This document shows, in pieces, positions 6,468-52,303 of a DNA stretch of 64,000 nt (its first letter is position 1; the number at the start of each line of letters is the position of its first letter). The stretch is from positions 186,001 to 250,000 of the forward strand of contig BROI01000022.1 in the NCBI GenBank assembly GCA_027923505.1, given 5' to 3'. The position numbers were made by a program, and so were the translations under genes. The notes beneath the pieces were generated by a model. It searched no databases. It saw nothing but the letters and a program-made list of their open reading frames with translations, and was not told the origin of the DNA. The stretch is from Mayamaea pseudoterrestris. Lineage: Eukaryota > Bacillariophyta > Bacillariophyceae > Sellaphorales > Sellaphoraceae.

Positions 6468-6550
6468 TTTGATCAAACCGCTACGACAGTCGCTCGTCTC
6501 GTCAAGGCGCATCGCTCATCGCTCATCACAACATGAATGCGCCATGAATC

Positions 6551-12857: not shown

Positions 12858-13051
12858 GGTTACGTTATTTGCAAGTGGATCGCAGCTGTCTTTGAATGCA
12901 ATTTGCTGTACTGATCACAAGACAAGAATTGAAGCAAAGGAAGAAACTGTTGCAGACGAATGGAACGGGTGGCTGTCCACCTCGAGTGCGACAAAAATCC
13001 AGTCGTGTTGTGACTTCATCGGAATCGACGGCGCGTGTGCCAGGCTTCACA

Positions 13052-13400: not shown

Positions 13401-16400
13401 GACCTTCTCGACGATCTTGTTCACTTATAGCAATATAAACGACACATGGACCATCGCCGCTGCGTGATATTCAGCACACAAGAAGAATCGCAAGACAATG
13501 CAAGGAAAAGCAGCAAACACAAGACTTGAAAACAAGGATCAAGCAATGTGGTTGTATCGCAGGAGCAGCATGAAGAAGGTCACAGTCAGCAGCCAGCCGC
13601 AGCCACGAGCCGGACGACCAAGGAAGATTGAAACAACGATGACAGTTCCATTTACATGATCAGGCGCATTCAATCAACAGCACTATAAAATATTGACGCA
13701 AGTCATTGTTTCGTACTTCACAAATGGAATCGTAGTTTCCGATGTTTGAGTTGACTCGCGTCAATGAATTTCTTGCCGAGCGACTCAGCGCCAGCGCGTT
13801 ATAACAAGTTATACCCTCGGACTTCACACTGATGGAGGAGCTTGAGATGGATTGATAACGTCAATATGTGTCTATTGGCAATGGATTTGCGAGCGCCTTT
13901 ATTGACGAAACGCTCGCAGAAGCGTCACCATGTCATGACGATGACGCTAGAGCCTCTTTTCATTCGACCATCCAGTCACCACATGCACGAACTGGACCCA
14001 TCCTTTGTTATAAGTCTGCGTCTTTTACCGCGCGGCAGTGGCTTTTTTCACGCATATGGAACGTACGGGACCCTCGTTGACTCGGATGCATTCGCGTTGC
14101 CCCTTCGCGTCGGAGAACACATGGCCGTTCATCAACACGTGCCACATTGGAAATCTTAAAAACTTTTGCAAAGAAAACGCATTGGTTAATCATATTTGGT
14201 GAAAGATGAATCACTCTGGCGAGCCAGATTCGCATTTGGCACTTCGCATGCTGCATAGCGTGTTCTTAATAGTCAACTGTTGGGCGATAAAGGATGTTGT
14301 CTATAGAGACGATGGAATGAATGTAATTGTCCTTTACACAGCGAATTAGTAATATGCTTGCCATCGTTACATAATGCCCATACGTAGAGCCATCCGTATG
14401 GCCAAATCAAGCCGTGCGACTTTGAACCTCATGGATGGTAACTCTTCATCGGCACCATCCCCTTTGAAAGCGCATGGCACCTACCTTGTCAAGTCAGTGA
14501 AACAGTAGCCGAGTCCTCTCGGCCGTCAGCAGCTGCAAAGCGCCTTATAATTCAATACGAAGTGCAATGTACAAGCAGCAATCGTCCATCCTTCCTTCCG
14601 AGAAGCCGAGCAATCCAATGCATGCACATGTTTAAATCCTCCGTTATTATCGACATTCTTCATGGCAACGAATCTTGCTACAAAAGTTTCGCATCGTAGT
14701 ATAATAGCCGAGTTTCATTAACAAATGGAACCGTATTTTTTTATCAAGAAGAGTACGACAATTTGGATCGTCGGTCATCAGTCGTCGGTTGCTTCTAGTC
14801 CAGCCACCTCCAAATGCAGCGACCTTGACTATGTAAACCCGAATCAACTGAACCGATGCAAATGCCCATTGAATTGTGCGCCGAGGCTAAAGGGTACTGC
14901 GCGATTGTGCGTAATGATCGGCATATTGCCTCGATCATTCCTTGACAGCATATTGCCAGTCGCTATGCCAATTTTGAAAGAGCTGGTGATCCGCGAGACG
15001 GCCCAAGCCCTCATAAGTCGATAATCACATATATCTTTCACAATGAAAAAGGAAAAAAGTCTCCAGCTTGCGTCCATCAAGATGTTGGTAGGAGTGCGGC
15101 CCAATAAGAGCTTAATCATTGAAACTTTACGACAAGGAGTGCAACTGCAGTCGCTTGGCCCGTTAGAATTGCATCTGCATGCCGATAAAGCAGGAAGTTT
15201 CCAAGAACAGGCAGCTTTCGCAAGATAGGATAACGGGCATCGATTACATCGAGATGCAGCAACGAGGAAGGTCAGCATGATGGCGTCCACATCAACCACG
15301 CTGCTTGTGAGGTAACCAGTTTTGCCGTGGACAGATGAGTTGGCATTTCTCATCGCCACCGACCGCCATGTCTGCCACAAGACATACTCCTGTATGACGT
15401 CGATTACCTCCCGCTGTCAGCGCTTTCGTCAAGCAAGTATAGCTTTTTCGGACGCCACTGCCGCATCAAAATTGCTGGTCCGGCGTTTCGTACGAGGCAG
15501 CAACAGCTGCTTTAAATACAATTATTGTTGCAGTGCCCGACGATCTTCCAACATGTAACGTTTGGCCGCGCATGCCGTAACGAGCCACCACTCTAAGCTG
15601 AAGACAGTTAACAATTTTATTCCTCAATCCTTTCGACGCAACGTCGCAACGGGCGAATACCGCCGTGCGAGAACGTCGTATATACACATGACATGCACAT
15701 GTCGATCACATTCAAGCGACACATGGCAAATTCAAGCTCCTTACACACATGCTTAATGCCGACTAGCGCAAATTCAATATGCAGCGAGCTTTCCACTTCT
15801 TGAGCCTTGTATTGTTCCGCTTTGCGTCGGCAAAGGTGAACATGTCCATGGCAAAGTTGCTCCCAATCCAATATATATACTGAGAGGCGCTAAACTTCAA
15901 TCTTGAGTTCAACCCTCTTGGCCAACTCGGCATTGCTGCAACTTTTCTCGAAGCAAACGTCCCCATTTGATCGTTGTGGCGTACTGTAATGTGCTATACT
16001 GCAGGCATTTGAGCAAAGACGTTGTAGCAAAATTTGTTTTCCATCATTAACCTTCCAATGAATATCTCGTAGCACCATGATTGTCGGTTGGCAGAGCGCT
16101 GCAGTAATGACAGCCAATGCCTGACGTGCACATCCTCTACTGTACCGGTAGGTTGCTTCGTAGATCGCAAACTACATGATTCTCCTCCGTGAGTCCTGCC
16201 GTGGATGCTGATGCTCTCAAAGTCAGCTTGAGTCGATGCGTGCCGACCAATGTGCATGGTCTGCTCCATCATTTACTGGAAATGTACGTCGTACGTCGTC
16301 GTATCAGAAGACTAGCGTTGGCAATTTTTGCCATCATTGAATGTCAATAGCCTTATATGCATTGGGCGATGATACGTCCGTCAAGTGCAACAAGAAAAAT

Positions 16401-16560
16401 GAAGTGTGCGATGGAACGACTCGATGTTGACGAAAACCTTTCCTGTAACGCTACGACATTCAAAGAGCCAAAGAGCCATATGATTGGTTGAAAGATCTTT
16501 CGTCAGTTTATGTGAAAATGGACCCAACAGGAGATCTTTGTTTCGATTGGCTAGACCGAG
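13401..16560. other. Gene-poor region, no supported gene
   Basis: About 3.2 kb with no frame that carries a recognisable domain, low-complexity bias or splice-supported continuation. The longest open stretches are 105 codons (13842-14159, plus) and 178 codons (14844-15380, minus). The latter is rich in Cys and Arg in a way expected of antisense noise and has no convincing homologue in my memory. It might hold a decayed gene or old transposon, but nothing identifies one. No tRNA-like cloverleaf was noticed. Confidence 0.45.
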
Positions 16561-16647
16561 TGACAATAACTTTGAAAACTGGCCCAAGAGAGTTCAATTC
16601 ATTTCATTGGTCTATTTCGTGACCAATAACTTTGAAAACAGGCCCAA
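16561..16647 (+). repeat. Two-copy 59-bp direct repeat upstream of the DUF1769 gene
   Basis: The segments CAATAACTTTGAAAACTGGC (from about 16564) and CAATAACTTTGAAAACAGGC (from about 16623) are near-identical and 59 bp apart. Both are followed by CCAA and are flanked by ATTGG/CCAAT-type boxes. They lie 230-320 bp before the ATG at 16880. The AACTTTGAAAA part resembles the core of the repeats at 13.1 and 44.2 kb. Confidence 0.6.
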
Positions 16648-16879
16648 CTAACTTTGTGTGATTTGATTGGTCATATACGAGTCATTAATGACGGTAGAGC
16701 TTCCGAGTGAACCTTGCGTGACGCAATTCCAAGGCATGAACGGCCGTCGACGCTTGGATCGAGGCACAGTAGCCAACAAGACTGCCAAACAAGCGATAGC
16801 AGACGAGAGTCTATGACAGTATAGCTTCTTTCTAGCAAGAGTAGCTGCCTGAACGATCATTCCATCGCCATTTTGCAGC

Positions 16880-21123: not shown

Positions 21124-24015
21124 ATGTCATCCTCTCGAGTATCTCGACGAGCAAATCATGCAACAAATAATGCACAACGATCCTCTGTTGGTGCTACATC
21201 ATCCTCCTCGTCCAATCCATCACCATTCACCATGTTTCGACGCAGCAGTCCAACCTGTTGGATTGGAACATCCATGTTCTGTCTAGTCATTGTATACGTT
21301 GGAGTCGTCGTTGTCGTTGCCAAGCATCACATGCAGGTGCAACACCAGTTACAATTACTTTCAGTAGACGGCTTGTCGCAGCAACAAGACGAAACGACAA
21401 ACATCAATCACCATTTATTACAGCAGCAGCAACAAGCAAAGCAGCTACGAGCCGATTCAGCCAATGTTGGAATACAAGATAAACCAAACCCCAAGCATGC
21501 AGCAATGGCAGGACTTGGTGGAAGCCAAAGCGTCAATGAAGCCAGAATACTCGACAAGCAACAACCCAAGGGCGACGACGGAGATGACGATGATGGCAAT
21601 GATGACGCTGAGGAAGACGATGAGGAGGAGGACGGGGATGATGCTGATGTAAAGGACAAATCATCCAACGGCAAGCAACCCGACGTCAGCAATCAACAAG
21701 AGAATCAGGCCATTGTTCGGCCACGCCACGAAAGACTAAAAGCCCGAGACGACTTTGGTCATGGAGGTGAGCCGCAAGTCATGACGCTTAAACCCCCCGA
21801 TACTTCCAATTTACAATTTACAGCGTCAACAACGGAGCATGACATTCCATTAGATCAGCATCCAACGCCAAACAATATACTAAAGGCATACATTGAACAG
21901 GTTGACTTTGACGAATGGGAGCAGAAACCACTTCCAGTCAGATCCAAAGCTACCAAAGAACATTTGCGCGAAATATCATACTCGCGTTTGCACTCCTGTC
22001 GCAACTTGATGGCGCAGTTCCCAGTGGACGACACTCCAACCAATCATGATCCATTTTTACCATGGATCCACGATGTATTTCCGACGGCAGACGGCAAGTT
22101 TATTCAGTTTGTCGCGCAAAACAAGCGACGCTGTCGAACAGGTTCGACCAAATCCGAAAAGGAAGCGCTACACTTTATGCAGCCGCAGGCTTCCTTGTTT
22201 CAACACGTTCCAGTGCAGCGAGTACACAATGACAATGATAGCGAAACTCGCTACAAGCTAGTTCCATATGAAAAGGCCGACGCGGATGGATTGGTGACGC
22301 GGTTCATATGTCGTTTCAAACCAAGCATGGAGGAAACCTTGAGCGTGCACAATGTTGACTACGATTGGACGGCACTCCGGAAAAAGTATCGCCATACTTT
22401 TGACAAGGACGATGGCGGTCTCAAATCAATTCACACGACACAGTTAATGTTTCAATGTCCCGTCCCCGAGCACTTGCAGGAGACTGTACGGACCGGAGCG
22501 GCGGTGCAAAATGACTGGACGTCGCTCTTTGTCGACTTGATTCCAATACGGACGCCACCAAGATATGGATCGCCGAATCGATACCTTGCGCCATGGTACA
22601 GCGAATTTCAAGCACCCGGTCAGGAAGCTTTCCGGCCAAGTAAAGAGTGGGGCGACGAGCACATATTGCCGCGAATTGAAGACTCTGGTCGATGGGAAAA
22701 CATTCCTATTTGTCAGCCATCGCTCATGGCTTGGGAGGGAGCCACCAAATCGGACTTGCCAGCGACGAAGGAGGATTCCATTCCGAAGCGACACAAGCTT
22801 GTTTCGTGCATTTGGGCATCGGCAGGTTACGCGACGCGAGGCAATCGATTCGCCATTAATGATGGACAGAGGCGGTTGCTGGAGTGGATGACTCATAACA
22901 AGAACATTGGATTTGATCACTTTTACATTTATGACAACACTGGAGCGTTTCGAAACGATACGTCGCTGAAAGCGGTTGCCGACTTGTTTCCTGGCGAAGC
23001 GACGATAATACCTTGGCCGTCAACCGTACGTGTGTGATTGTAACTGCAGTCGTTGACGTGTCATTGCTCTCATCTTAGCATCTCTTTGCAGATTTGCAAC
23101 AACAATCCAAACAATGTTGACAGTCCCGGCGAGCGTTCGTCTCAATATGCCGCGGAATCGTCATGTCGACTGCGGTTTGGTGCTCACGTGGATTGGATTG
23201 GCCAATTTGATATTGACGAATATCTAATTCCCATGGGTGATCACACGACAGCCACCTCGCTACTGGCAAAGCTAGACAAGGAGGATACGAAGATTATTTC
23301 CTTCCCTTCATGGCGCGCATGGCCTCGGTGGGAGCATATCGGCCCCATCGATAAGATTGAAGATTCAAAAGTATGTTGGTCGGACGAGCCCTGCTTCCAT
23401 CTTACAATTCCGCTGACAACAACCATGCTGCAAGCGTACAACTGCGACCGACAACTACCTGGTAAAAAGGCGCAAAGTATGCCGGCCGAAAAACAGATTT
23501 ACAAAGCAGGTACGTGAACAAGCAGCCACCCTTCCTAATGGGATGACCGTTGCCTGGTAACTCATGCGCTGGCTTGCCATTTTGATTCATACGCAGACTA
23601 CGTCACACAGCATTTTGTGCATTATTCAGCCGCTACAACTCTTTCGGCACTCAATCGATCCGAGTTCGAAAAGCAGTTTCCATGGAGGTATCGCGCTTTC
23701 CCTGACAGGAGGCAACGCTTTGCTAATGAGGTAACTGAAGGCTTGATGATACATAGCAAGGCCGTGGCAACGCAAGATACAGTCGGGTGGGAACGTGTCT
23801 GTCACATTGACATACAGAAAGAAACAAACAAGTGGAAACGAGGTCTGTGTCGATTAGGCGTTCCATGGCCCGTCGATCCAGGGCTAATCAAGCAAAATGC
23901 CACGGAAGAAGGTTGGGCCTACAATTGCTATGTGAACAGAAAGGTTGAAGAGTACTTTGTTCCTCGCCTCTATGGTGCTCTCAAGGACCAGTTGAAGATC
24001 TTTAATGCGCAGTAA
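21124..24015 (+). CDS. GT92-family (DUF23) glycosyltransferase, second paralogue
   Basis: Three exons, 21124-23025, 23092-23509 and 23597-24015, 912 residues. Introns of 66 and 87 bp (both GTACGT donors) restore PWPST-ICNNN and QIYKA-DYVTQHFVHYS, which align with the continuous sequences of the gene at 6.5-9.2 kb. A signal anchor (FCLVIVYVGVVVVVA, about residues 58-72) is followed by a long acidic and Gln-rich stem at about 75-210. The catalytic domain shows NIGFDHFYIYDNT, PGERSSQYAAESSC and the DxD motif in IGQFDIDEYLIPMG. Likely a Golgi type II enzyme acting on glycans. None of its intron positions is shared with the other GT92 gene. Confidence 0.87.
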
Positions 24016-24381: not shown

Positions 24382-25446
24382 TCACGACAATGGCTCGACG
24401 CCGTCATACGAACGATACGACGACTGTCGCTGATCTAATTCCAAATCAATGTCCATCTTCTCCTCCTCCACGCCCTGCTGTTGCCGCCGTTGCTTGATTG
24501 GAGCTTTTTCCTGTGATCGACGCAAAGCTTCCTGTAAGAACTTTTCATCCTAGTAGTATTGACATAAAAGTAGTGTTGCGACAGGGTGTGAGTTGCCGGG
24601 CGAGTCTGTCAACGAAACGTCACAACCATTACATCTTTCATACATACCTCCTGCAATGTTGAGGGCGCCTCGACAGATTCCAAATAGGTGAGCGGCTGCC
24701 TTGGAATATTCGCAGACAACGGCGCGTGTGTAGTAGCTTGTAATGTCGGTGCAGCTGTACAAGTAGTCGAGCGACTATAAACGTACGCCGACACTCCAAC
24801 TTGTTGCAACTTTGGCAGCTTGAAAAATGAGCATCCATCAATGATCAGGTCGTACTGTTTACGATTGTGCTCCGGCATGGCTGCGTAGCCGATAAACTGC
24901 AAGTGTAATTGGCGACTGGAAGGCGTCGGTGAAGCTGGCGGACCAGCGGCAGCGTCGCTTGGCAGACGAAATGTCCAGGAAACATTCACAGCCTTTTTCA
25001 TATTCGTTTTGCTAGAATTGATGACTTTCTCCTCGCTATCAAGATGCACTGGAATAATCTTGTCGTTGATTGTTATGCGCAGCTTTCCGGAACGAACGCT
25101 CCAAACAGCAGTGACTAAATGTTCCTCTCCGCAGCAAGCAATTCCTTGAAGACCCTGCTTCAGTGACGCTCCATCAGCTAGTCCAAACTTGTATGACAGG
25201 ACTCTCTTGGAACTAGCAATATGCTTGCCTTTTTCAACATAGGAAAAGGAAACTTGATACGGAAAGGTCGGCATCATGGTCATCTTTGCGGTTGCTATAG
25301 CTTCTTCCATTCGCTGAAATCGCTGATTCACCTCTTCATGACAGGGCAGAGTTGCTAATAGTAGATCGTGGTCAATTGTGAGCCCATAACGTACTTCATT
25401 GCAGCGTACTTGTACCGCTATGAGATGCGCCAATTGCTGTGGTCAT
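24382..25446 (-). CDS. FAIM-like beta-sandwich protein (tentative)
   Basis: The core exon is 24648-25354. A last exon at 24382-24549 (56 codons with stop) follows a 98-bp intron with GTATGT donor and CTAG acceptor. The proposed first exon is 25410-25446, joined by a 55-bp intron (GTACGC...TTAG), giving MTTAIGASHSGT before TLPCHEEVNQRF and about 303 residues. Without that intron the frame opens only after a stop, and the first internal ATG is at 25310. The segment HLVTAVWSVRSGKLRITIND, a WTFRL strand and KQYDLIIDGCSFFKLPKL resemble the Fas-apoptosis-inhibitory-molecule fold as found in stramenopiles. That link is from memory of the pattern. The C-terminus is Gln-rich. Array 2 lies directly upstream in the gene's orientation. 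Confidence 0.6.
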
Positions 25447-25490
25447 GCAACTGCTTGTTTCTTGACGGCTTTGGCATTTGTTTCAAAATA

Positions 25491-25889
25491 CTATTGCCTA
25501 ATGACGTAGTTTTCACTGGCACCCGTTTCATACTATTGCCTACTGACGTAGTTTTCACTGGCACTCGTTTCGTATATTATAGCCTTGTGACGCTGTTTTC
25601 ACTGGCACTCGTTTCGTACTATTGCCTCATGACGTAATTGACACTAACACTCGTTTCGTACTACTGCCTTATGACGGTGTTTTCACTGGCATTCGTTTCG
25701 AACTATTGCCTCGTGACGTAATTGACACTGGCATCCGTTTTGTACTATTGCCTCATGACGTAATTGACACTGGCACTCGTTTCGTACTATTGCCTCATGA
25801 CGTAATTGACACTGGCACTCGTTTCGTACTATTGCCTCATGACGTAATTGAAACTGGCACTCGTTTCGTACTATTGCCTCATGACGTAA
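25491..25889 (-). repeat. 42-bp tandem array 2, nine units, minus orientation
   Basis: Nine copies of the unit seen at 6.1 kb, here reading in the minus direction. On the plus strand each shows CACTGGCACTCGTTTC, then TACTATTGCCTCATGACGTA. The element nearest the minus-strand gene (TGACGT at 25502-25507) is 56 bp from its proposed ATG at 25446, and a degenerate partial unit follows. Because 42 is divisible by three, open frames run through the array, but unit differences do not follow codon positions. Confidence 0.9.
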
Positions 25890-26737
25890 GATATCAGGAA
25901 TGCTGCACGTCGCGACCACCATGGAGTTTTTCTTCCGCTGCTTCGCACAACACGAGAGCTGTTGGTTTCTCGACGCGTGTCTCATGCATACAGAGCATTT
26001 AGACACTGCCGCCATGTCGGAGATGGCGATGCACTGCAATTCTTTGCCGCTGCCTCCTATCGCTTTCGTAACCGCAAGCGACCGTCCTTTCATCTTTCAT
26101 CTTATCTAATATTTCAATGATCATTTCTTCGTTCAAGTCATTACACAACAAATCAAACCAAAGTCGGAATATTGTCAATACACACTCACGAACAGTTGCT
26201 CCACGGGTGTCATGTATTAATTTACAGGAATGAACTCCCTTAAAAGCGAGGTTCGCAAGCACCTTCCAGCGAGCAATTCCTATTTCGAATAAAACTACCA
26301 AAGACAGAATCGACAGCCGATCAAAAGATTGCAGAAATTTCGAGGAATAAAGTCATGTATGGAGGAGCTGGACTGTTAAGATGGAGTGACGACTGCCGGA
26401 GTCGAAAGTGATGCGATGACGCGATACGCGATGGTGATCCGGTGCAAAGTTGCAACTGCCTGGGATACAGAATAATCCATGGTCGACAGTGCAACGATAG
26501 CAACTGCAAACGACGACCTTTCTGCGATCGAATGGCTGGAGCTATCGTTGGTGGCTCCTTGAATATACTGTTAGTGACGAAGGATCGCAGGGCATATTGA
26601 CAATTGACGTCGACAGCTAATCCAGCGATGAGATTCGCTGCTGTAACACAACAAGAGCGTAAAACAGATCTTTCAATTATTCGTTGTACTTGTGCAGAGT
26701 CCATTTTCTTTGTACAGCACGACATTGTTCCTCGACC
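25890..26737 (-). other. No firm gene; two minus-strand open stretches
   Basis: Minus-strand frames at 25999-26301 (with CVLTIFRLWFDLLCNDLNEE, helix-like) and 26321-26704 (MDSAQVQRIIERSVLRSCCV) look more protein-like than random sequence. I could not join them by convincing splice sites or match a family. They could be exons of a small gene or a decayed one. Confidence 0.25.
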
Positions 26738-27691
26738 TTACCAGAGAAGGGGTATGATTGCTTTTCTCTGTCCTGGATACCGCTTGCCATCGTCGTCATT
26801 ATCCTTTCCGTAATGACTCACGCCAAACGTTGCACGATACCATGCATGGTGCGCCAGTGCCCGCGGCACGAGGTTCGCCGCCGTAAAGACAGCCAGCGAA
26901 ACGCTAGCGACGGATCCTTGGTTCAGCAAGGCAAACCCAGTCCACTCGAGTATTTCGCCAAGAAAGTGCGGAGCCGTCACATATTCAAACATGCCGCCTC
27001 GAGGAATCTTGTATCGATGAATACCACTTGGAGATGCGAATGCTGTTGTTGTTGACGTTGTCGTCGTAGTCGACCGTCGTAATGATCGAAGAATGGCGTC
27101 CGAGTGAAGGTTCATCGCAGCTCCAGCTACAAACAAGGCGATTCCGCACCAAAACATGGGATGGTAAATGTAATCATTCGGTACTGGGCGAAATAGACAG
27201 ACGGATCGAGCTTGTAGACTGTTATGTGAAAAACGATTCAAATGAGCATATGAATTCAAAAGTTGCATATGCGACCAATATATCCATTCGCACAAGCCAA
27301 CTTACTATCCATTAATGAAGCAGTATGCCATGGCCGAAACAGCCATGAGCAATGGCAATCGTTGACTCGACTTGCTCATTAGCATTGGATATATGATGGT
27401 TCGTTGTATGTAGTGCAGCACAAACAGCAATAACAGCAATGAGCTGAGTGCGTTAGGTGGCGGTGAATCTTTCCAGCATATCCAAGCCCAAAGTAGATTC
27501 GGCGATTCAAAGACAAACCATGATATTCTTGGAGGAAGGATAGGCCTGGCCCACCATTTATTCGTTGTTGTCTTTCCCCATGGCGCCTTGAGCCAAAGGC
27601 AGGCGACAAACACAAGTGGCGACGACAAGAGAATGCTCCAGGAGATTCGATCATGCAGTCGTTCTTCGGCCGAGAGACTCAACCCAAACAT
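26738..27691 (-). CDS. 3-oxo-5-alpha-steroid 4-dehydrogenase-like reductase (SRD5A/DET2 family)
   Basis: Two exons, 27306-27691 and 26738-27218, 288 residues. The 87-bp intron (GTAAGT...AACAG) restores FINGYLQARS, matching CNGYLQSRY in SRD5A1. The start at 27691 gives MFGLSLSAEERLHDRISW, which aligns with the N-terminus of the family (AEERLL). Conserved catalytic and cofactor motifs are HSDAILRSLR, YKIPRGGMFEYVTAPHFLGE and ALAHHAWY, and the protein ends in IIPLLW like its relatives (IIPFLF). Several membrane-spanning segments place it in the ER membrane. The reaction is NADPH-dependent reduction of a delta-4 double bond in a 3-oxosteroid or similar lipid. A Thr/Ser-rich insert of about 16 residues interrupts the loop between HSD and YKIPRGG. 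Confidence 0.9.
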
Positions 27692-27841
27692 TGTTATCCT
27701 GCTGCTATTATAATTTTGAAGAGTCAATAGAGCATATAAGGGAACAGAGTCGTCGACCAAGCAGTATAAACGGCGAGGGTGACCGATGGATGCATGCGAA
27801 AGAAATTGGTCGAGGAGCAACGCGATTCCAGGAGAACAATT

Positions 27842-28072
27842 ACGTCAAAAGGCAATAGTACGAAACGAGTGCCAGTGTCAATTACGTCATAAGGCAATAT
27901 TATGAAACGAGTGCCAGTGAAAACTACGTCACGAGGTTATAGTATGAAACGAGTGCCAGTGAAAACTGCGTCACAAAGGCTATATTGTGAAACGAGTGCC
28001 AGTGAAAACTGCGTCATCAAGGCATAAGTACGAAACGAGTGCCAGTGTCAATTACGTCACAAGAACGAGTGC
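27842..28072 (+). repeat. 42-bp tandem array 3, five units plus a partial one
   Basis: Cores (AAACGAGTGCCAGTG) start near 27863, 27905, 27947, 27990 and 28033, a 42-43 bp period, followed by a partial ACGAGTGC at 28065-28072. The final ACGTCA (28054-28059) is 67 bp before the ATG at 28127. The array lies between the divergent SRD5A-like and 2OG-oxygenase genes, and its orientation matches the oxygenase gene. Confidence 0.9.
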
Positions 28073-28126: not shown

Positions 28127-29188
28127 ATGACGGCTACTATACGAGGCTCCCCCACTCTCTTCCTGGAACCAACGGCTCGGTTTTCTGTTCTTCACATTCA
28201 TAGAGATGACTTGGGTGCAAAAGTATCCGTAGGAAAGCAAGAAGCGAGACGAGAGCTTCTTCCACACGTCCCTGTCATTCGGCTCGACGACCTTTTGCTT
28301 CACTCTCATCGATCAAGTACGGAATGTGTACAAGAACAACTGCATCACGCGTTGTCAACGCAAGGTTTCTGCTTGATAGTGACTTCCAAGCATAGTCAAC
28401 CTGCTCGACTCGTTAATGAGCTCCGAACGTCCCTGACGCGCGACCTCTTTCCACAAGACTTTCAACCTGCTACTCATTTGCAGCAGTCTGAATCAATATA
28501 CATTAGTGAGCGTGACGTTCCCATGTATCGACTGGGATATGAGCTTTGCGAAGACAACGTACGGCAGCAGTATCGAATAGCTGCCGGCCGACCGGATGAA
28601 CAGCCATGGCCGTCGATTGAATCGAGACGCATCTGGCTGCAATCATTGGGATTGATGCGACACGTTACCGACGCTGCTTTGGAACTTTTATTGAAACGGG
28701 AGGTGCAAACACGTAGCCAAGCTGCCTCCTCATCCCTTCCTTCGATGCGCTCGCGTCCATACTCCAGCGCTTCCGCCTGGCGCAATGATAGGTACGCGAG
28801 TTCGAACGTGCACTCGCTGAATGATCGGCCACAAGACTTTTCAGTACTCTATGCCATGCACTACTTTGGACGATCACTCGATGACACGAACGGCATTGCC
28901 GTCAAGCAGCACGTTGATCCGTCGCTGCTGGTGCTAGAGCCTTTCCTTTGTCCAAACGTTTGCGGTCTACAGGTTTGGGATAGAACTCTACAAACGTGGA
29001 TGGACTGTGACGGACCTGACTCGCCCATGCATGCGTTTCCAAACGAGCATGTCATGCTGCTCTTTGTCGGCAAGGGATTGCAGGTGCATTTGCCTGAGTT
29101 GGAGGCGACGTTACACCGCGTCGTGTCGAGCAATGGGCGAGCCCGTCGAACTGTGATTTACGAACAAAAGTACGGGGTATTTTATTGA
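28127..29188 (+). CDS. 2-oxoglutarate/Fe(II)-dependent oxygenase (isopenicillin N synthase-like)
   Basis: A 353-residue intronless gene from ATG 28127 (MTATIRGSPTLF). The C-terminal double-stranded beta-helix carries the iron triad: H262 and D264 in KQHVDPSLL, and H330 in ATLHRVVSS. The 2-oxoglutarate-binding Arg at about 340-341 lies in RARRTVIYEQ. The segment VCGLQVWDRTLQTW is typical of the plant-type DIOX family. The N-terminal part (VPVIRLDDLL, LSTQGFCLIV) resembles the non-haem dioxygenase N-terminal domain, with an Arg/Ser-rich insert at about residues 195-240. The substrate cannot be inferred. It is preceded by array 3 and convergent with the small minus-strand gene that ends at 29267. 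Confidence 0.85.
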   Translation: MTATIRGSPTLFLEPTARFSVLHIHRDDLGAKVSVGKQEARRELLPHVPVIRLDDLLLHSHRSSTECVQEQLHHALSTQGFCLIVTSKHSQPARLVNELRTSLTRDLFPQDFQPATHLQQSESIYISERDVPMYRLGYELCEDNVRQQYRIAAGRPDEQPWPSIESRRIWLQSLGLMRHVTDAALELLLKREVQTRSQAASSSLPSMRSRPYSSASAWRNDRYASSNVHSLNDRPQDFSVLYAMHYFGRSLDDTNGIAVKQHVDPSLLVLEPFLCPNVCGLQVWDRTLQTWMDCDGPDSPMHAFPNEHVMLLFVGKGLQVHLPELEATLHRVVSSNGRARRTVIYEQKYGVFY

Positions 29189-31504: not shown

Positions 31505-34327
31505 CTAAAGTTCTTCTTCGTCTTCATCGTCTTCGTCACCTGCTTCATCCGTGTCAGCATCAACTTTCGGCTCGTCATCCGGAACAACGTGCACGCGTCG
31601 CAGTAGACGCTTTGTCGTAGACACTTGCTCTTCTGCCAATACGTGGTCGCTTACTGGCACTGGTAGCTTGTAGGATGCATCATTTGGCCGCCAATGTCGA
31701 CCAGCCCAGCTCATCAGCAGGGCCGAGTCGCGCGGAGGAAACGCTTGCGTGTACTGGTCCTGGATGCGCTCCACATTGAGTGCATTTACATCCGCAACAT
31801 ACACTGTCGCAGCCAGTCGCATCTCCTTGTTGGGTCGGTAATCGACGGATGATGTCGCGTGATAGGCATCATCGCCCATCATGGCGGCCATGCCGTACTG
31901 GTATTTTAAACGACCGACAGGTGTCGTCCCATCCGGCGCTGGTGGCCACTGCTGCAGGTCAAGCTCTGGACCGGTATCATTTGCCAAGAGCAGTGGAATG
32001 ATAATGTTGTAAGTCTTAGCTTGCGTTCTCGTTACGTCGTGATGTAAATAACCTTTAATGGCCTGTGAGACGGCGATGAATGTGACATGAAAGGCAACCA
32101 ACCCGTCCATTTGCAATTGCTCGCCAACACCGCGGAGCATTTCGTCAAATCCCGACGCTCCAAGAGCCTGCAGGTAATCTTCATGCGCCGGGTGTCCAGC
32201 TGGAGACAGCCAGTGCAAATCCGAGTGCCAATTCTTGCCGGGTCGTTGCAGATACCATCGCTCCTTGTTCACCGTCAGAAACATGTCGTCGTCAGGTAGT
32301 AAACCATTGCCATCACTCGTCACATGCTTTAAAATGTCGTAAATGCCAGTCTTATTACAATAGTCAAGCAAGCCAAGACGCACACGCTCAGAAATACCCA
32401 ATATGTATGCGTTTGGCGTCACCACAGATCCAGTATCCTTCCATCGAATATGTTCCATGTGTCCCGGCGGAAGATATGATGGTACGATAAAGTCGCCAGT
32501 TGGATTAGGATCCTGTGCGGCCCATGCTTCGGGATAAAGGCCATTTGGTACACCAACCGCGTGTCGAAAGGCATTCGGACTATACGCGTCGTCGTAGTAT
32601 GCCTTGTGCATTACTCGAATAGCCGTCGCAGGAACGTGGACGACACCAACTGAGTCGACGCGTTGATTGTCATCGGATAGTTTACATGTTGAAGGCGTGC
32701 CCATGTTATCTAGCTCGCGAACCATTACTTTGTATGCAGACCCATCACCATTCGATTTCTGCGTCCGCTCCAAAACATCGCAAGGTCGTAGGCAGCCGTA
32801 GTTTTCACTAGTCCAAACAACGTTGCCATTACTATCCGTTATTTCCTCAACCTCGTCCGACGAAGAGTGACCAAAGTAACATGCAGTCTGTAGATTCTGT
32901 GGATACGGATTGCTAGCTTGCTCGTCCAGGGTTCGAATAAGTGTACCATCCAATGCATGCTCCGCCGCAAATGCTAGCGGATCAACTTGGTCATTCAACT
33001 GCAACTGTCGAAGCTTCTCTTCGTATTGCTCGGCATGCTTGTCAAACGCCTTGGCCCAGTCGTCTCCGTAATCCAGCAAGACTTCCTCGTTTGGTAAAAT
33101 GTCTCGCGTTGCTATCACATTCACAACAAGCATTTCGTCTAGCGCCAATGGTTTTGCAAACAGTTCCATGGGTCGGATGGAATGTAAATGCGGTGCTTGC
33201 ATCGTGGTGGACCATTCGAGTCGAGCATTGGAGGTATATTGCGGCGTTGACGCGTGATTGAGCATGGAGACGGCTGGTTGTAGCGGCAGCAACAAGACAT
33301 TGGAAGCATTCGAGGCGAAGCAGTAATTCAACAGCAATTGATATCCAACTCCGCGAGTGTTTTGGTATCGAACGCTATGAGCGGTTCGGGTTGAAAATGC
33401 TGCAACCGAGTCAGCCGTCTCCATTCCATAATACTGTTGTTCAACCCGCTCAATTTGTGATTGATCAAAGTGCAAGACTGGCGACGACTCAATAACTTGA
33501 CCAGCCTGAAAGTGTCTTGTCGCAAACGATCCACTTCCAGCTTTTAGAATGGAGGATGGCTGAATCTTTAGTGCATTCGACAAGCAAATTGCCGACTCTT
33601 GCAAATGAAGCGTGCTCAAAACTTTTCGCTTGAGCGCCGAAACAAGGCTCGAATCATCAACGTCCGAATCACATGGCAATACAAGTTCCTCTCCAGCCCA
33701 GAGGTTCGTCGTCGCCGTGAATCCGTTTGTTTTGGGCGCATTGGCAAGAAGGTTTGTAGTCGCCGTGAAGCCGTTTGTTTTGGGTGCAAGTGAATGGTAG
33801 ATGAAGCTTCCAGCTGATGCATCTCGCATCGTGACATTGACTCGATCTCTCGTCACAATGTCATGTTTCATACCAGGATCTTCGTCATTTAAACTCTCAC
33901 TCCATGGCGCTTGAACATTGCTAAAGTGAAATGAGCAAACCATCATTGACGCTAGTCCAGTTGTGAGTAAATCGGTTCTGTATTGGTTCTCCAAAAGCAA
34001 TCCGGATTCACTCCGTAGCAAAGCGTCCAATTGCTTGTTTCCATAAGTCTGCATGAATCCATGCCATGGACTCCATTCATTCTTATTGGCGTCTGCAACG
34101 GGTAGAATCAATACAGACTCGCTTGCATTTGCAATGGTTGATCCTTGTCGAATGGCACGAGCCGAATAAAGACCGAGACGGCCGGGACGGACGGATGATT
34201 CCGCCAGGTAGAATGAGCAGTCATCTTCTGCTTTTGTAAGTGAAAACTTCAGTAGTAATAAGGAGAGAGAGACTGACCAATGGCAAGGTCGTCGTCTCGT
34301 CGCTGGAGAAGGAACGGTAGTCGCCAT
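31505..34327 (-). CDS. Secretory SET-domain protein fused to a 2OG-Fe(II) oxygenase-like domain
   Basis: A 940-residue intronless gene. A signal peptide is evident (VSLSLLLLKFSLTKA, cleavage likely before EDDC). A SET-type region follows, with CSFYLAESS at its start, then GVGYQLLLNYCF, LNHASTPQYTSNARLEW and VIATRDILPNEEVLLDYGDDW. A linker (PNAFRHAVGVPNGLYPEAW) leads to a C-terminal domain with an HxD motif at H762/D764 (GYLHHDVT), a second His at about 820 (DDAYHATSS) and a downstream Arg, as in 2OG oxygenases. The substrates are unknown, and a secreted SET protein is unlikely to be a histone methyltransferase. It is divergent from a shorter SET paralogue at 34550. An internal 48-bp tandem duplication (33,703-33,791) repeats APKTNGFTATTNL. 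Confidence 0.75.
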   Translation of the reverse strand: MATTVPSPATRRRPCHWSVSLSLLLLKFSLTKAEDDCSFYLAESSVRPGRLGLYSARAIRQGSTIANASESVLILPVADANKNEWSPWHGFMQTYGNKQLDALLRSESGLLLENQYRTDLLTTGLASMMVCSFHFSNVQAPWSESLNDEDPGMKHDIVTRDRVNVTMRDASAGSFIYHSLAPKTNGFTATTNLLANAPKTNGFTATTNLWAGEELVLPCDSDVDDSSLVSALKRKVLSTLHLQESAICLSNALKIQPSSILKAGSGSFATRHFQAGQVIESSPVLHFDQSQIERVEQQYYGMETADSVAAFSTRTAHSVRYQNTRGVGYQLLLNYCFASNASNVLLLPLQPAVSMLNHASTPQYTSNARLEWSTTMQAPHLHSIRPMELFAKPLALDEMLVVNVIATRDILPNEEVLLDYGDDWAKAFDKHAEQYEEKLRQLQLNDQVDPLAFAAEHALDGTLIRTLDEQASNPYPQNLQTACYFGHSSSDEVEEITDSNGNVVWTSENYGCLRPCDVLERTQKSNGDGSAYKVMVRELDNMGTPSTCKLSDDNQRVDSVGVVHVPATAIRVMHKAYYDDAYSPNAFRHAVGVPNGLYPEAWAAQDPNPTGDFIVPSYLPPGHMEHIRWKDTGSVVTPNAYILGISERVRLGLLDYCNKTGIYDILKHVTSDGNGLLPDDDMFLTVNKERWYLQRPGKNWHSDLHWLSPAGHPAHEDYLQALGASGFDEMLRGVGEQLQMDGLVAFHVTFIAVSQAIKGYLHHDVTRTQAKTYNIIIPLLLANDTGPELDLQQWPPAPDGTTPVGRLKYQYGMAAMMGDDAYHATSSVDYRPNKEMRLAATVYVADVNALNVERIQDQYTQAFPPRDSALLMSWAGRHWRPNDASYKLPVPVSDHVLAEEQVSTTKRLLRRVHVVPDDEPKVDADTDEAGDEDDEDEEEL

Positions 34328-34549
34328 GGTGATGGACGATGGACTGCCATTGTCACGCTCACCTCAACTCGCTCACTGCTTGGGCGCGTGCTGATATATG
34401 ATGGTGGCTGGCCCGATGCGACATGAGGCTCGCCCGGCTTGCTCGCCAAAAGCGTCACGCACCTCCGCACCTCCGCACCTCGCACCTCGTCGCACCTCGG
34501 CATGTGGATTGTGCCAACAAGCCAACAGGATTTATCACAAACCTCCATC
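34328..34549. promoter_or_regulatory. Bidirectional promoter between two divergent SET genes
   Basis: Only 222 bp separate the ATG codons of the divergent SET+2OG and SET genes. The stretch contains five direct copies of a CGCACCTC-like element at 34,458-34,500, which are kept in copy B at 52,363-52,405. Promoter function is inferred from position. Confidence 0.5.
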
Positions 34550-36658
34550 ATGAGGCTTGTGCATTCTCAAGCTTTGACGAAGCGCACCTCTCACTATGCA
34601 TTGACTGTTAGTCTTATCATAGTGACATTGCTGTCATCAAATAGACTCGCAGTCGCTGCTATATCGAGCAATGAGACTGACCAACAGGCGCAGCATCGAA
34701 CACCACAGCAACAGCAACAACATTCATGCGGACTGTACTTGGCTCCAAGCACCATTCCAGGGGCTGGCTTGGGCATGTTCAATGGTCGCTCCTCAAAGTC
34801 GCTCTGGGAACCCATCGGGCCGGCTGATTTGGTGATTCCAGTCACGGACTACTCCGAACACAATTCAGTACAGTCCCACAATGACGACGAGGATGAGCAA
34901 GCATACATTATGAATTACTATGGATGGAACATTCCGAGCTTTGCACATCTGCAGCATGATGCCAATGTCGACGATACCGTTGCCTTTTGTCCGGGACCAG
35001 GCGCAGCCTTGAATTGTTTAATGGGACTTGTCAATACCGTCGCGCTTGACGAAGAAGTCTCATTCAAAACGTACACCAACCAGCATTCTTCCACGCCACC
35101 ACACGCCGGAAGCTTTACCCCATTCAGCAATCGACAGCTAGTATCCAAAGTGAATAATATTGAACCAGGTGCGGAACTCTTTGACGACTACGGCGAAGCA
35201 TACTTTCGAGTCAAGGAGCGACCAGCCTACCATTCCATTCCAGTGACGAGCGACTATTCCGACGCCGATTCTTTGCTGGAGGAATATGAATCACTTCGAA
35301 AGCAAGTTTGTGGAGATGGCCTGTGTCATGAACCAATGCGAGCTGCGGATCCGATTACAACAGTGTCTTCGCCCACGTCATCACTCCATAGTTCGCTCTA
35401 TCAGCTCATGAACTCGCTCAAATCAACATGGCCGAGCCCGGTATTGAACGCCTTGCCGGAAAATCCAGAAACGGTTGATCAACTTACGGCACAAGGTACT
35501 GCCATGCGTGACTATCATCGAAGCATTCGATCCATTGCTTGGCTCGAGGAGCACGGAGACTGCATGGACAAGATTCGCATCGACGAGAGTGGCATTCCAA
35601 ACGCAGGTAACGGAGCCTTTGCTACCACGTTCATTGCAAAAGGAGACATTGTCGGACCAGCGCCAGCGCTTCATATACCTCGTGACTTTATGCAAATGTA
35701 TCCCGTCGACTTTGACGAGAACGAACAGGAATATAATGTGAATGCAAAGACAAACGACGGACCCACTCATCAACAACTGCTACTGAACTATTGCTTTGGA
35801 CATGATCGATCCAGCCTGCTGCTATGTCCATACGGGGCAGCAACACAAGCAATCAATCACGATGCGATAGCGCCAAATGCCGAGGTGGTTTGGAACTATA
35901 AGCTCATGCAACGGCCAGAGTGGTTGGAATTGCCGTTGCCGGAATGGACGCACCACATGAGCGCAGGTTTGGTATTGAGCTATGTGGCCACTCGAGATAT
36001 ACAAGCTGACGAGGAAGTAACAATTGACTATGGACGCGATTGGCAGAAAGCTTGGGACGAGCATGTAGGAAGCTTTGAACCACCAGTGGATCGAGCCGAC
36101 TATTTGGATGCGCTGGCTTTGAACGAGCAAGAGTTGGAACTGCAGGTATCACCTTTTTGGTACAGCGACAAGTACGTGCAACTCAAATGCCGTGGCATGT
36201 ATTTGCGATGGAATACTGGAACGGTGATAGACCATGGAGACATTGACGACGATGAGGAGGAAGAAACGCCATTTTCGTACACGACCGAAACAGACAAGAA
36301 AACATTTTCATGCCGGCCACTGCATCGCTACGCATCCAAAAATACCAGTGACACGCTGTACGTGGTTCAAGTTTATGCAAGATACGGCGAAGACGGACAA
36401 TGCTTTGAAAGTGACTGGGAGGTCGTCTTTGGAATGCCACGTGATGCGCTTGTCTTTGAGGATCGAATGTACAGCAGAGAGTAAGTAGTTCCGTCGCCAA
36501 AAAAGAGTTTGTCGGCAAACGTTTCTAAACTCACTCGGTTGGTCACTCGCTTGTTTTACAGTCATGCACAACCATGGAGCTTTCGACATTCGATTGGGAT
36601 TCCTGATGAGATTATGCCTGAGGCTTGGCTTGACCTTGACGCGAGTGTGAAGATATAA
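34550..36658 (+). CDS. Secretory SET-domain protein, copy A
   Basis: Two exons, 34550-36480 and 36562-36658, 675 residues. The 81-bp intron (GTAAGT...TACAG) joins MYSRD to HAQPWSFRHSIGIPDEIMPE. That second exon aligns with PNAFRHAVGVPNGLYPEAW of the divergent SET+2OG protein and confirms the splice. The N-terminus is a signal peptide (YALTVSLIIVTLLSSNRLAVAA). SET-type motifs are CGLYLAPSTIPGAGLGMF, the repeated IPNAGNGAFATTF, QQLLLNYCFGHD, AINHDAIAPNAEVVWNY and YVATRDIQADEEVTIDYGRDW. Compared with the neighbour it stops before the 2OG-like domain, so it is the shorter paralogue. Substrate and location after secretion are unknown. Confidence 0.8.
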
Positions 36659-36781
36659 ATCTTACACCCTAGCTAATCTAATAAAGCGCTACATGATTTT
36701 ACAAGTATGTGCTACAACTATTAGTACAATATCCAGAATTGTCATATTCAATGATTACACAATTCCACTGTATTTTTTCAA

Positions 36782-38599
36782 CTACGCCGGAGTCAGTCGG
36801 TACTGCATGACGGCAAATCCATACCGAGGCGATCCTCGCTTGAAGGCCACCTTCGACACCCCATGTCCTAAGGTAATCTCAACTGGTTCGGTCTCCTCCC
36901 ACTCGCCCATAGTGTACGGAATGGCAATCTCTCGCTTGTCCTTGCCATTGACAGTGACCGCCATGGGCAGTTCGTCACGATGAACCGTACATACCATGGC
37001 CGTCATATTGTATCGTCCTTCTTGATACTTGTCGAGCGTATACTCAACCTCAGCTTCTGCTTGAAGAAAAATTTGACAGCCACCCATGAACGACTTGTGA
37101 ATGTGAACTTGGTTGTTCGGCTTGGGGGGTTTCGTGAACGCCGTTCCTGGTATGACAATTGCTCTTCCATCCCTTGTAATTAATTCCTTTTCTTCCTTTT
37201 GTGCGATGATCTTGTCGAGTAGAGTGATGACTGAACTCTTTGGATGCAATGGCGGGCATTTATCCGTACATTGTTTGCCTAGACGCTTGCGCTGGAACAA
37301 GGCCAAGGAACACCAGAGTGCCTTCGAGCTTGGGTCGGCAATTTTCGACACCAACGTACGATCCTCGCCACTCGCCGTCGCAATCCACTCCAGTCGCAAC
37401 ACCTTGCGCATGTACTCGTCATCCGTCTTGCAGGCATATCTTGCTTGCGTCATCCACAAGAAATCATTGCCAGTCACTGGACCCCAGTAACTCTTGTGAA
37501 TACAAGCACCCAAGCACGTCATCCACCCATTCACGGTATGCCGGACAAGCGCCGCATGGCCAGGCTGCTGACAGCCCCAGGTCGGAATACCAAATGCCTT
37601 GCATGCAAACCGCCCATACCAGGCGCGAGGACCGCACTTTCCGCCGCTACTCAATATTTGATCATACGTTCGGACTTCCTTACCATCCTTGTCGCGCCGC
37701 CACCAGACAGGATTAGTGTATCCAACATCCTGTTTGACAATCATGCAGTAGCGCCACTGTAGGTTCTGCATGTATATTAAGTCTGGTCTATAGTTCCGCA
37801 AACATTCACGACCCCACGTGAGTTCATCGTCTTGGGCGTCACTGTCAATTGCCATGCGAAGCTCCCATACGGCAAACGTAGAAAACAAAGGATCAAGTTC
37901 GCCGGCTAAGTAAGCTTGCTTGTAGTGTTTGTAGCGCTTGACTGGATCAATCTCGTAGCCCTGTCCAACTTTTAAATCGATTGGTGTGCACAACTCCAGT
38001 GCTACGGCCAACGCAAGTCGCTGCAAGACTGGATCCTTTCCCCCTGGAATTGACTTGTAGATCTGCAAGGCCTTGGCGTAGCAATTCTTTCTTGGACCGC
38101 CGGAACTTGCAAACTGCATGAGAAGGTCAGTGTCGCAAAAGAATTGAATCAAATCCTCGTGTCCGTACGCTTGCACTTGCTGCTGAAAGGCCATGCCTTT
38201 TGGGGCGCCCGCCTCCATCATGCTTGCCGCAGTCACGAGTGAAATGGACGAGGAGCTGTCGAGTGGCTGATTCAACAAGGAGTCTTCCAATTGTTTCAAA
38301 ATTTGGTCGGCAATCTTCGCCGCCTTTTCGCGAGCTTGTTCAACCGATTGGGTCGATGCATCCAGCTTGGCTTGCGCAGCTTGTAGTATCGCTTCACTCG
38401 CATGCTCCTTGGTCTTTTGATCAAGCTCCTTTTGCGCTTGATTCTGCTGTTTAGAAGCAGCTTCAAAGCCGACAATGGCTGCATGAAAATCTGCTTGATG
38501 CGGCATGGATGGAACGTTTGCCTGCTTGAAGACGTCGTTGCGCCACTCTACCAAATAATTGGCGTCGTAAACTCCCTTCATTGCAACAAGAGGCTTCAT
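36782..38599 (-). CDS. Transglutaminase-like (Cys-His) protein with C-terminal beta-sandwich, copy A
   Basis: A 605-residue frame from ATG 38599, the first ATG in a slightly longer open frame. An N-terminal Ala/Lys/Gln-rich coiled-coil region lies at about residues 45-95. The core motif GGKCGPRAWYGRFACKAFGI (Cys at about 322) followed by QQPGHAALVRHTVNGW (His at about 348) has the spacing of the transglutaminase-like Cys-His dyad, with a conserved Trp after it. The last 120 residues (GGCQIFLQAEAEVEYTLDKY, VAFKRGSPRYGFAVMQYRL) look like a carbohydrate-binding-module-type sandwich. No signal peptide is clear. The fold call is from motif spacing only. Copy B at 54,691 conserves the same residues. 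Confidence 0.6.
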   Translation of the reverse strand: MKPLVAMKGVYDANYLVEWRNDVFKQANVPSMPHQADFHAAIVGFEAASKQQNQAQKELDQKTKEHASEAILQAAQAKLDASTQSVEQAREKAAKIADQILKQLEDSLLNQPLDSSSSISLVTAASMMEAGAPKGMAFQQQVQAYGHEDLIQFFCDTDLLMQFASSGGPRKNCYAKALQIYKSIPGGKDPVLQRLALAVALELCTPIDLKVGQGYEIDPVKRYKHYKQAYLAGELDPLFSTFAVWELRMAIDSDAQDDELTWGRECLRNYRPDLIYMQNLQWRYCMIVKQDVGYTNPVWWRRDKDGKEVRTYDQILSSGGKCGPRAWYGRFACKAFGIPTWGCQQPGHAALVRHTVNGWMTCLGACIHKSYWGPVTGNDFLWMTQARYACKTDDEYMRKVLRLEWIATASGEDRTLVSKIADPSSKALWCSLALFQRKRLGKQCTDKCPPLHPKSSVITLLDKIIAQKEEKELITRDGRAIVIPGTAFTKPPKPNNQVHIHKSFMGGCQIFLQAEAEVEYTLDKYQEGRYNMTAMVCTVHRDELPMAVTVNGKDKREIAIPYTMGEWEETEPVEITLGHGVSKVAFKRGSPRYGFAVMQYRLTPA

Positions 38600-39057
38600 A
38601 CTGGTTGCCTTCCAATGCAAGAGGAGCGAAACGATAAATTTAGACGCACGAATGATGGTGATGAATGGCCGCTCTCCTGCAAAAGGGAAACGGATCGATG
38701 GAACATCAATGAGGTGCGTCGCAACGCGAATGTCACGCTTTCCGGGTCCTACCCTGGCAACGACCCAGCAACGTCAAATGGAATGCTTAACAAGGCGGGA
38801 TTTCGATAGTGAATCGAGCAAAGGATTGATATAGACTACATCGGTAGGCATGGTTTTGAATAACCATACCGAAGAGGGTCAAAAGATACAGTATTGAGGG
38901 AAGGAAAAGTCTCGTTGCTCACTTAATCGTACATTCCAAACATTGGTGTAGGATTGGTTCTATGATTATCATATCATTCTATTTTCCTTTTATTTCGGGT
39001 AGACTGAGTTTCAGTAACCCGGTGTATGCTTTGGCAAAGTTTAAAACAAGTAATGGT
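38600..39057. other. Intergenic with a stem-loop, conserved in both copies
   Basis: Contains a hairpin at about 38841-38872 (TCGGTAGGCATGGTT, loop, AACCATACCGA; 6-bp and 5-bp stems with a GGC bulge). The equivalent in copy B is at 56,750-56,781. Across this stretch the copies differ at only about three to five positions. The hairpin may be a structured 5' UTR element of the minus-strand transglutaminase-like gene or chance. Confidence 0.4.
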
Positions 39058-39924
39058 TTACTCGTCTTCCTCCTCGTTTGACGACGCAGCCGGACCGGCC
39101 TCGGACTCTTCATCATCTTGATCAGAGTCGGACTGGGCAGCATCGTCTTGCTCTTGCATGTCGTCAGCTTGAAAATCGTCGTCGATTGTAGGTTCTTCGC
39201 CTGAAGTGGTAGGCTCGGACGCAGACTCATCGTCGACTGGAACTGGAGCAGCGTCGTCCTCGCCATTTTGTGACTTGAAGTCTTGGATTTCGTCCGTTAT
39301 TTCTTCCACTGTAGCTGTATTCTCCAACTCCGGCTCGTTTGCGACGACTGGTTCCGGTTCCGCTGCCGTAGTTTCCGTCTCGACTGCTCCGTCCTCGTTG
39401 GTTGAAGCATCGTCATCGTCCGCCGCAACATCAGCTCCTGCCGCAACATTGATCTCGTCCAACTCTGTATGGCCATTCTCGACAACAACAGGCTCCTCTG
39501 GCTCTTCTATAGCAACTTCTGCCACTGGTTCAGTTTCAGGTTCGGGCTCTTTCTTGTTATCCACGACTACTTGAGCTTGTTCGTCGCGAGGTGAGTCGAC
39601 CGTCGGAGCTGATTCTTCCGTTGGTTTCGTCTCATCGACGGATGCTCCTTCCTCCTTGCTTGGTGGATCATCGTCTTCCACAACAGCTGGAGCAGCTGGA
39701 GATGGGGCCGACGACACAGATTCCTTGATATCGAATTTTGGAGGAGGAGGAGGAGGAGGAGACGAGACTGCATCGGCTTGCTGCGCCGTCGGTTGATACG
39801 GAGAAACCTTGAATTTGCTTGGCGTCGGCGGTTTCTTGGCAGCGTCTTCTGCCTCCTGCTGCTCGCGACTTTGCTTTGACGCTTGCTCAAAGAGAGCAAT
39901 GCGATCCTTGATGCTTCCTACCAT
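39058..39924 (-). CDS. Acidic, disordered protein, copy A
   Basis: A 288-residue frame from ATG 39924 (MVGSIKDRIALFEQASKQSR). Only the first 25 residues look structured, as a short amphipathic helix. A Pro/Gln segment with an eight-Pro run follows, and then about 200 residues rich in Glu, Asp, Ala, Val and Pro, ending in SSNEEEDE. No domain is recognised. It lies just downstream of the myosin gene on the same strand and is kept together with it in both copies. Copy B differs by a shortened Pro run and scattered replacements, yet the frame is retained, which argues for a real protein. Confidence 0.6.
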   Translation of the reverse strand: MVGSIKDRIALFEQASKQSREQQEAEDAAKKPPTPSKFKVSPYQPTAQQADAVSSPPPPPPPKFDIKESVSSAPSPAAPAVVEDDDPPSKEEGASVDETKPTEESAPTVDSPRDEQAQVVVDNKKEPEPETEPVAEVAIEEPEEPVVVENGHTELDEINVAAGADVAADDDDASTNEDGAVETETTAAEPEPVVANEPELENTATVEEITDEIQDFKSQNGEDDAAPVPVDDESASEPTTSGEEPTIDDDFQADDMQEQDDAAQSDSDQDDEESEAGPAASSNEEEDE

Positions 39925-40705
39925 GGTACGATTGTGATGCCTATTATTTGATGATGGCCGATGACGATGATGATCTTGTGGTCGACGAAAAAGGAGAGGT
40001 CCCAGAACGTCTTGGGATCTTGATTGCACCATGACCGGAAATGACCATGTCGCGCTACGACATAACACAATCCTTGTCCAGCTACGTACCTTTAGGCTGG
40101 ATCCAGCCAACCAAGAGTATACATTTACATGTAAATAGAATGATGGAGACATTTTTGTCCTCTTTGGTCGGTTTAAATCCACTGCTAGACTTTGCGGGAA
40201 TTTTAATCGTGCTTTGAAGATCTGCAAGCCTCCATGGTAAAGTAAGTTGAAAGAATTCATACACAATATGACTTACAATAAGAAGTAGATTCATGAGCCA
40301 ACTAGCTCTTTAAAGTCTGGCTATAAACATTGCATTTGAAAACATGTTCCAACTGAATACAGTGAAGATGGTGCACCGTTGGACAAAGCAATTCCGCACT
40401 ACCGGTAGACCTTATGCGGTCGCTGCACAGGCCTCGGCATCGGATTCACAAATGCCCAGCAGACCGCTATCAAGCGCTAAACTGCCTTACAAAAATTGTA
40501 TTAAAAATGACTTGGGAAACGACACTGTCAGTTCCAGAGTCGTGCGTCCTCGTTGAAGTACAAGCATCTGCTGTCATCCTCGTTTGCCTTGGTACTGACC
40601 GAGCACTGGTTATAAAAACAGCTCCCGTTCCCTCGCCGCGTTGAGTTCACCACGGCTTTTGCCAACGCCTCGACGATGCCCCAGCAACATGCAACAACTT
40701 GATGT
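39925..40705. other. Intergenic between acidic protein and myosin, with copy-A-specific sequence
   Basis: About 560 bp here (near 40,050-40,612) correspond to only about 75 bp in copy B (near 57,965-58,041). The extra sequence has no convincing frame and no obvious terminal repeats, so it could be an insertion in A or a deletion in B. Confidence 0.55.
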
Positions 40706-44065: not shown

Positions 44066-44196
44066 GCTATCAAGCTATAGCTAGTTTAGAAGGATCTAAT
44101 TGATCCCGCTGGAAATGAAGAACAAAAGGTTGTTGGATCGGCTGTTTTCGTCGACTTCCGGTCATTCGAAACCGCTACGACTATTATGAGTACACT

Positions 44197-52233: not shown

Positions 52234-52303
52234 GGTGATGGACGATGGACTGCCATTTGTCGCTCACCTCCAGCTCGCTCACTGCTTGGGCGCGTGCTGA
52301 TAT

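Follow-up and report, generated by a model that had tools for sequence, protein, structure and literature searches.

In a 64-kb stretch of DNA (the window), three arrays of one sequence of about 42 bp precede genes that are unrelated to each other. Do the arrays keep one direction toward these genes, as might be expected of elements that regulate them together, or are they copies of a dispersed repeat that happens to lie beside promoters? The window is eukaryotic, as seen from an XRN exonuclease, a myosin, a GT92 glycosyltransferase and spliced-looking gene structure, and its GC content is about 49%; it gives the impression of stramenopile DNA and may come from a diatom. The features discussed below are collected in Table 1.

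Table 1 Positions of the arrays, genes and other repeats in the window
Feature	Position	Strand	Description
Array A1	6076–6468	+	9 units of about 42 bp; core spacings 42, 42, 42, 45, 42, 43, 42, 43
Array A2	25463–25889	−	9 units; core spacings 42 (six times), 44, 42
Array A3	27837–28063	+	5 units; core spacings 42, 42, 43, 43
ORF upstream of A1	4590–5924	+	No Pfam match
GT92 glycosyltransferase gene, downstream of A1	6551–8832	+	Pfam PF01697, E 8.7e-14 on 7087–8832
"FAIM-like" gene, downstream of A2	24609–25446	−	Several start models
Steroid 5-alpha-reductase-like gene	26738–27691	−	Pfam PF02544 (steroid_dh), E 9e-32 on ORF 26738–27295
Possible 2OG-Fe(II) oxygenase-like gene, downstream of A3	28127–29188	+	PF03171, E 0.063, below cut-off
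Second glycosyltransferase-like locus	21124–24015		Weak Pfam match, E 0.0005, below cut-off
Array B1	13048–13390		52-bp array; seven core copies; 104-bp higher-order period
Array B2	44189–44310		Palindromic
Array C	16560–16672		
Repeat of about 60 bp, upstream of the Duc1 gene	16483–16672		ATTGG box (inverted CCAAT) at 16483, 16546, 16606 and 16666
Duplicated block of about 10 kb, first copy	33808–44187		SET-domain and myosin genes
Duplicated block, other copy	51714–61644		SET-domain and myosin genes

Structure of the arrays

The three arrays were confirmed by Tandem Repeats Finder, which gave a period of 42 bp and the spans 6076–6468, 25489–25889 and 27841–28062; together they contain 23 units, and rows of period 84–85 also describe A1 and A3. 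By eye, the gene-proximal end of A2 can be extended by a degenerate tenth unit (25463–25488), and a truncated remnant of a unit lies just past position 28063 at the end of A3. In A1, an ACGTCA-like slot occupies both the first and the last position. When two or fewer mismatches were allowed, the 13-base core ACGAGTGCCAGTG occurred 28 times against an expectation of 1.87, and none of 100 shuffles reached 28. Inside the three arrays lie 23 of these 28 occurrences, all of them on the plus strand in A1 and A3 and on the minus strand in A2.

No further copies of the unit were found in the window with a profile built from 21 of the 23 units, the other matches listed, up to an E of 10, all having E values of at least 0.56. 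The unit also gave no matches in viral and prokaryote collections (which hold no eukaryotes) when it was searched for as patterns with 25 or 19 specified bases. Rfam at gathering scores returned no family, and ARAGORN returned no tRNA. In passages of four papers (PMC11142338, PMC3411249, PMC4721966 and PMC4686930), the 42-bp repeat does not appear, the literature search having reached subscription journals to a small extent. The letters of the core occur in one rat study, and this was taken as a chance match. It was also found that a minus-strand reading frame of 136 codons (25683–26093) crosses part of A2; it is kept open by the 42-bp period and is probably due to chance.

Neighbouring genes and array orientation

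The names that the first-pass annotation had given to the three downstream genes fared unequally. The GT92 assignment is firm, and this gene has an intron at about 7152–7263, as judged by eye. For the 2OG oxygenase, the Pfam match is a weak hint, with no match in the PDB. For the FAIM-like gene, neither Pfam nor the PDB gave a match with an E below 0.1, and its protein had no matches in viral contigs. On the distal side of A3, the steroid 5-alpha-reductase-like gene was assembled from two exons joined by eye; its first-exon ATG at 27691, likewise placed by eye, lies 145 bp from the distal end of the array.

It had been claimed that all the arrays keep one orientation relative to the gene they precede, within a range (25491–28072) that spans A2 and A3, A1 lying about 19 kb to the left. 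The strands are as had been described, and A1, which lies between two plus genes, and A2, which lies between two minus genes, agree with such a rule. A3 lies between divergent minus and plus genes, so that either direction would fit one of its neighbours, and its orientation is therefore uninformative. The rule thus rests on two of two cases, for which the chance expectation is 1 in 4, and it is not established.

Three other promoter-near arrays in the window were examined in the same respect. In B1, the core GTGCCAAAAACTTTGA is on the plus strand, opposite to the minus-strand XRN gene that the array precedes. B2 is related to B1 and is palindromic. In C, the core GTGCCAAAAACTTTGA is weakly present on the plus strand, like the Duc1 gene that follows. 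These three cases are mixed, and the promoter-near arrays here therefore keep no general direction. On the present data, the orientation of the 42-bp arrays toward their genes is most likely a coincidence.

Relationship and dispersal of the arrays

The view that the array was not carried along by gene duplication is upheld by the second glycosyltransferase-like locus, which resembles the GT92 gene (68% DNA identity over 156 columns, 8269–8423 versus 23092–23246) and has no upstream unit. The flanks of the arrays share no sequence, the best flank-to-flank match having an E of 0.38, and nothing outside the arrays is common to them. A comparison of the 12 bases to either side of each array showed at most 2, 2 and 3 shared bases and hence no target-site duplication, and no transposon end was recognised at the arrays. 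The units themselves are about as different between arrays (mean distance 0.22–0.24) as within them (0.18–0.27), and clustering by array gave a permutation p of 0.079 when all 23 units were used, including the last units that run into the flank. Head-to-tail units at several sites without shared flanks, by which a dispersed minisatellite is recognised, are thus found in all three arrays.

Two further features concern the ends and the internal order of the arrays. The arrays start at positions 17, 19 and 15 of the 42-position unit model, beside the ACGTCA-like slot; by a hand estimate made post hoc on three arrays, a span of start phases as small as this has a probability of about 0.03. A1 and A3 also end near this slot (model positions 26 and 29), and the last good unit of A2 reaches position 39, with the degenerate tenth unit following it. 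Moreover, two linked unit subtypes are ordered from the distal to the gene-proximal side (ttaaaaaaa, ttttataaa, taaat), with a one-sided p of 0.006 for this polarity in a test that was picked post hoc and applied to all 23 units of the three arrays. The shared unit, the unshared flanks, the start phase and the subtype order therefore favour preformed polar blocks over separate growth of an array at each promoter. The latter, in which a promoter element would have been amplified in tandem independently in each promoter, has a parallel in the tandem arrays of other sequences that also occupy promoter regions in the window; however, it hardly accounts for a full 42-bp unit and its subtypes being common to three unrelated genes, and we regard it as extremely improbable.

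On balance, we lean toward the explanation that the arrays belong to a dispersed 42-bp minisatellite, which would have spread as preformed blocks into promoter-proximal DNA and might have a regulatory role there. The family would have moved as multi-unit blocks, for example if circular or copied repeat DNA was re-inserted. The ACGTCA-like slot would form the block end, on both sides of A1 and A3 and on the distal side of A2, and the blocks would land, or persist, in accessible DNA immediately before genes. The earlier suggestion of a mobile repeat beside promoters accords with this, given the one unit, the unrelated genes and flanks, and the equal start phase.

Distance to gene starts

The gene-proximal ACGTCA had been placed 83, 56 and 67 bp from the start codons, and these values match ATGs at 6551, 25446 and 28127 to within 1 bp. 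The value for A2 is uncertain, because the FAIM-like gene has several candidate starts. The FAIM-like ORF is in a different frame from the ATG at 25446, and translation from this ATG would reach a stop after 16 codons if the transcript were not spliced. The start models obtained by script comprise splicing from 25446 with an intron of 55 or 115 bp, and direct in-frame starts at 25310 and 25283; further models put the first exon beyond A2. Measured from the arrays, the proposed starts are 16–82 bp away; for A2, a gene start at 25310 would make the distance 152 bp.

The significance of these distances was evaluated by random placement in the intergenic DNA, using a list of 25 genes set from ORFs and Pfam matches, whose limits we drew ourselves; ORFs within 12858–16879 were counted as non-genes without a family search. 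For all three arrays to lie within 85 bp of an ATG, P was 0.005, and it was 0.04 when a single gene-free interval of 4 kb was left out. With the start of the A2 gene at 25310 and the limit at 155 bp, the corresponding values were 0.013 and 0.10. Of the six arrays in the window with a period of at least 40, none is more than 210 bp from a proposed start (P 0.001, including the 4-kb interval), and for the four of them outside that interval P was 0.09. The promoter-proximal placement is thus marginal after the large gene-free interval is dropped.

These values bear on another explanation, according to which the arrays are unconstrained minisatellites that lie near starts only because the local intergenic DNA is short. 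It overlaps the dispersal part of the explanation that we lean toward and denies its promoter part. In the same gene list, 22 of the 24 intergenic intervals do not exceed 626 bp, the variance along the unit is neutral-like (see below), and the other arrays are mixed in orientation, all as would be expected for neutral repeats; the clustering of the six arrays near starts speaks against it, with the P values of 0.001 and 0.09 given above. We consider this explanation a serious contender, somewhat short of probable.

Other repeats in the window

B1 and the proposed start of the XRN gene are 190 bp apart, and the matches of B1 with the palindromic B2 are 68–78% identical. The two copies of the duplicated block are joined by two matches of 94.8% and 96.7% identity. 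The first copy has its right edge at 44187, where the palindromic 51-bp tandem array begins, and the other copy runs on into GC-rich unrelated DNA.

The 42-bp unit was compared with B1, B2 and C in several ways. With cyclic consensus units and mononucleotide shuffles, p was 0.02 for B1 and 0.17 for C, and none of 500 shuffles reached the score of B2. With the actual targets and dinucleotide shuffles of the unit, the values were 0.098 for B1, 0.048 for B2 and 0.69 for C. With A3 as the query, they were 0 of 300 for B1, 0.80 for B2 and 0.31 for C, in a comparison biased toward a match, since shuffling breaks up the tandem period. When 18 further stretches of the window were scored for comparison, B1 equalled the best of them (15.0) and B2 was slightly higher (15.5). 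Since these results disagree, homology of the 42-bp unit to B1, B2 or C is neither claimed nor rejected from such sequence comparisons.

Motifs and variation within the unit

ACGTCA is present in 14 of the 23 units and GCGTCA in 4, so that 18 units carry TGACGT/C on the other strand; this count omits the three slots that precede the first core in the respective arrays. Outside the arrays, these hexamers occur about as often as expected from a Markov model (ACGTCA, 17 versus 16.3; TGACGT, 11 versus 9.7).

Variation along the unit was examined in 20 of the 23 units, after the final unit had been dropped from each array. The column variance was within the range of neutral simulations (p 0.46 and 0.14–0.15). 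For the 13-bp window of lowest variation, counted cyclically, the observed value was 7, with p values of 0.04 by permutation, 0.09 under a coalescent and 0.03 under a Yule model. When the observed window was linear and the null cyclic, p was 0.076 by permutation and 0.15 and 0.06 under simulated neutral genealogies. Simulated sets were kept when their mean and the observed mean differed by no more than 0.6, which left 596 and 920 of 1500, and 1241 and 1815 of 3000 in the cyclic version. The evidence for selective maintenance of a core is at most borderline (p 0.03–0.46, depending on the test).

These data can be set against the idea that the arrays are oriented cis-regulatory elements, in which clustered bZIP sites and a second 13-bp element in each unit, selected in one direction, co-regulate a set of genes. 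A length of 42 bp corresponds to about four helical turns, so that the sites would face one side of the DNA, and the 13-bp core varies somewhat less than would be expected by chance in some of the tests (p 0.03–0.09). Against these points, the column variance is neutral-like, the informative orientations number two, and bZIP-type sites usually function either way round. In favour of the idea, the motif found in 18 of the 23 units is the one given as the target of bZIP11 in the accessible part of PMC11142338. Taken together, we find such oriented regulatory arrays unlikely.

Another idea is that the arrays are transcribed, acting in the 5′ UTR through RNA structure or through a series of small upstream ORFs. 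By eye, units with TATGAA can be read from ATG to a stop within about one unit; however, in 7 of the 9 units of A2 the T of that ATG is replaced by C, and the predicted RNA structure of A3, the one array that was folded, is ordinary (z −0.25). Such a transcribed element is therefore very improbable.

Returning to the dispersed minisatellite, a regulatory role of its arrays is possible: TGACG(T/C) in most units could mean, as a weaker part of the proposal, that each block brings a cluster of bZIP-type sites to a promoter. A regulatory role is plausible because diatom bZIP factors are reported to bind TGACG(T/C). In its strongest form, a polar preformed block would insert into promoters in a fixed direction, install bZIP sites and put unrelated genes under one signal, which we think distinctly improbable. 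If true, such one-direction spread of binding-site blocks would be a case of a repeat family directly wiring unrelated genes together; the present evidence is of a small family of dispersed repeats that lie near gene starts.

Comparison with known systems

According to the accessible part of PMC11142338, TGACGT/C is the reported target of bZIP11 in P. tricornutum and lies no further than about 300 bp from start codons; PtCA1, PtCA2 and PtBST1 have motifs on both strands, and PtBST2-4 have them on one strand, for which the authors expect a different regulation. As far as that text goes, the present arrays resemble these CO2-cAMP-responsive elements of diatoms in having several copies of TGACGT/C within about 300 bp of a start codon, as found in 18 of the 23 units. 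They differ in that there is one motif per 42-bp unit, that the units of each array are on one strand, whereas PtCA1 and PtCA2 have the motif on both, and that the genes are unrelated and the arrays known from sequence alone.

For aureochrome 1a, a stramenopile bZIP-LOV factor, the accessible part of PMC4721966 describes binding measured on a 24-bp fragment of the dsCYC2 promoter with TGACGT. The arrays carry the same hexamer, but in repeated 42-bp units, and arrays of this kind are not mentioned in the passages on that fragment.

The TCAST-like elements of Tribolium castaneum are described in the accessible part of PMC3411249 as lying near genes, either at the 5′ or the 3′ end or within introns; a regulatory role is suggested there as possible. 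TCAST itself is a major satellite that makes up 35% of the genome; its short dispersed arrays do not exceed tetramers, and it has transposon-like carriers (PMC3411249, same part). Unlike TCAST as it is described there, the present family has a unit of 42 bp and 5–10 units per array, with no carrier seen and no parent satellite known. Both consist of short arrays or partial monomers from a single repeat family, spread over sites close to genes, and dispersed euchromatic satellite arrays, such as the TCAST-like elements in that description, are the closest known kind.
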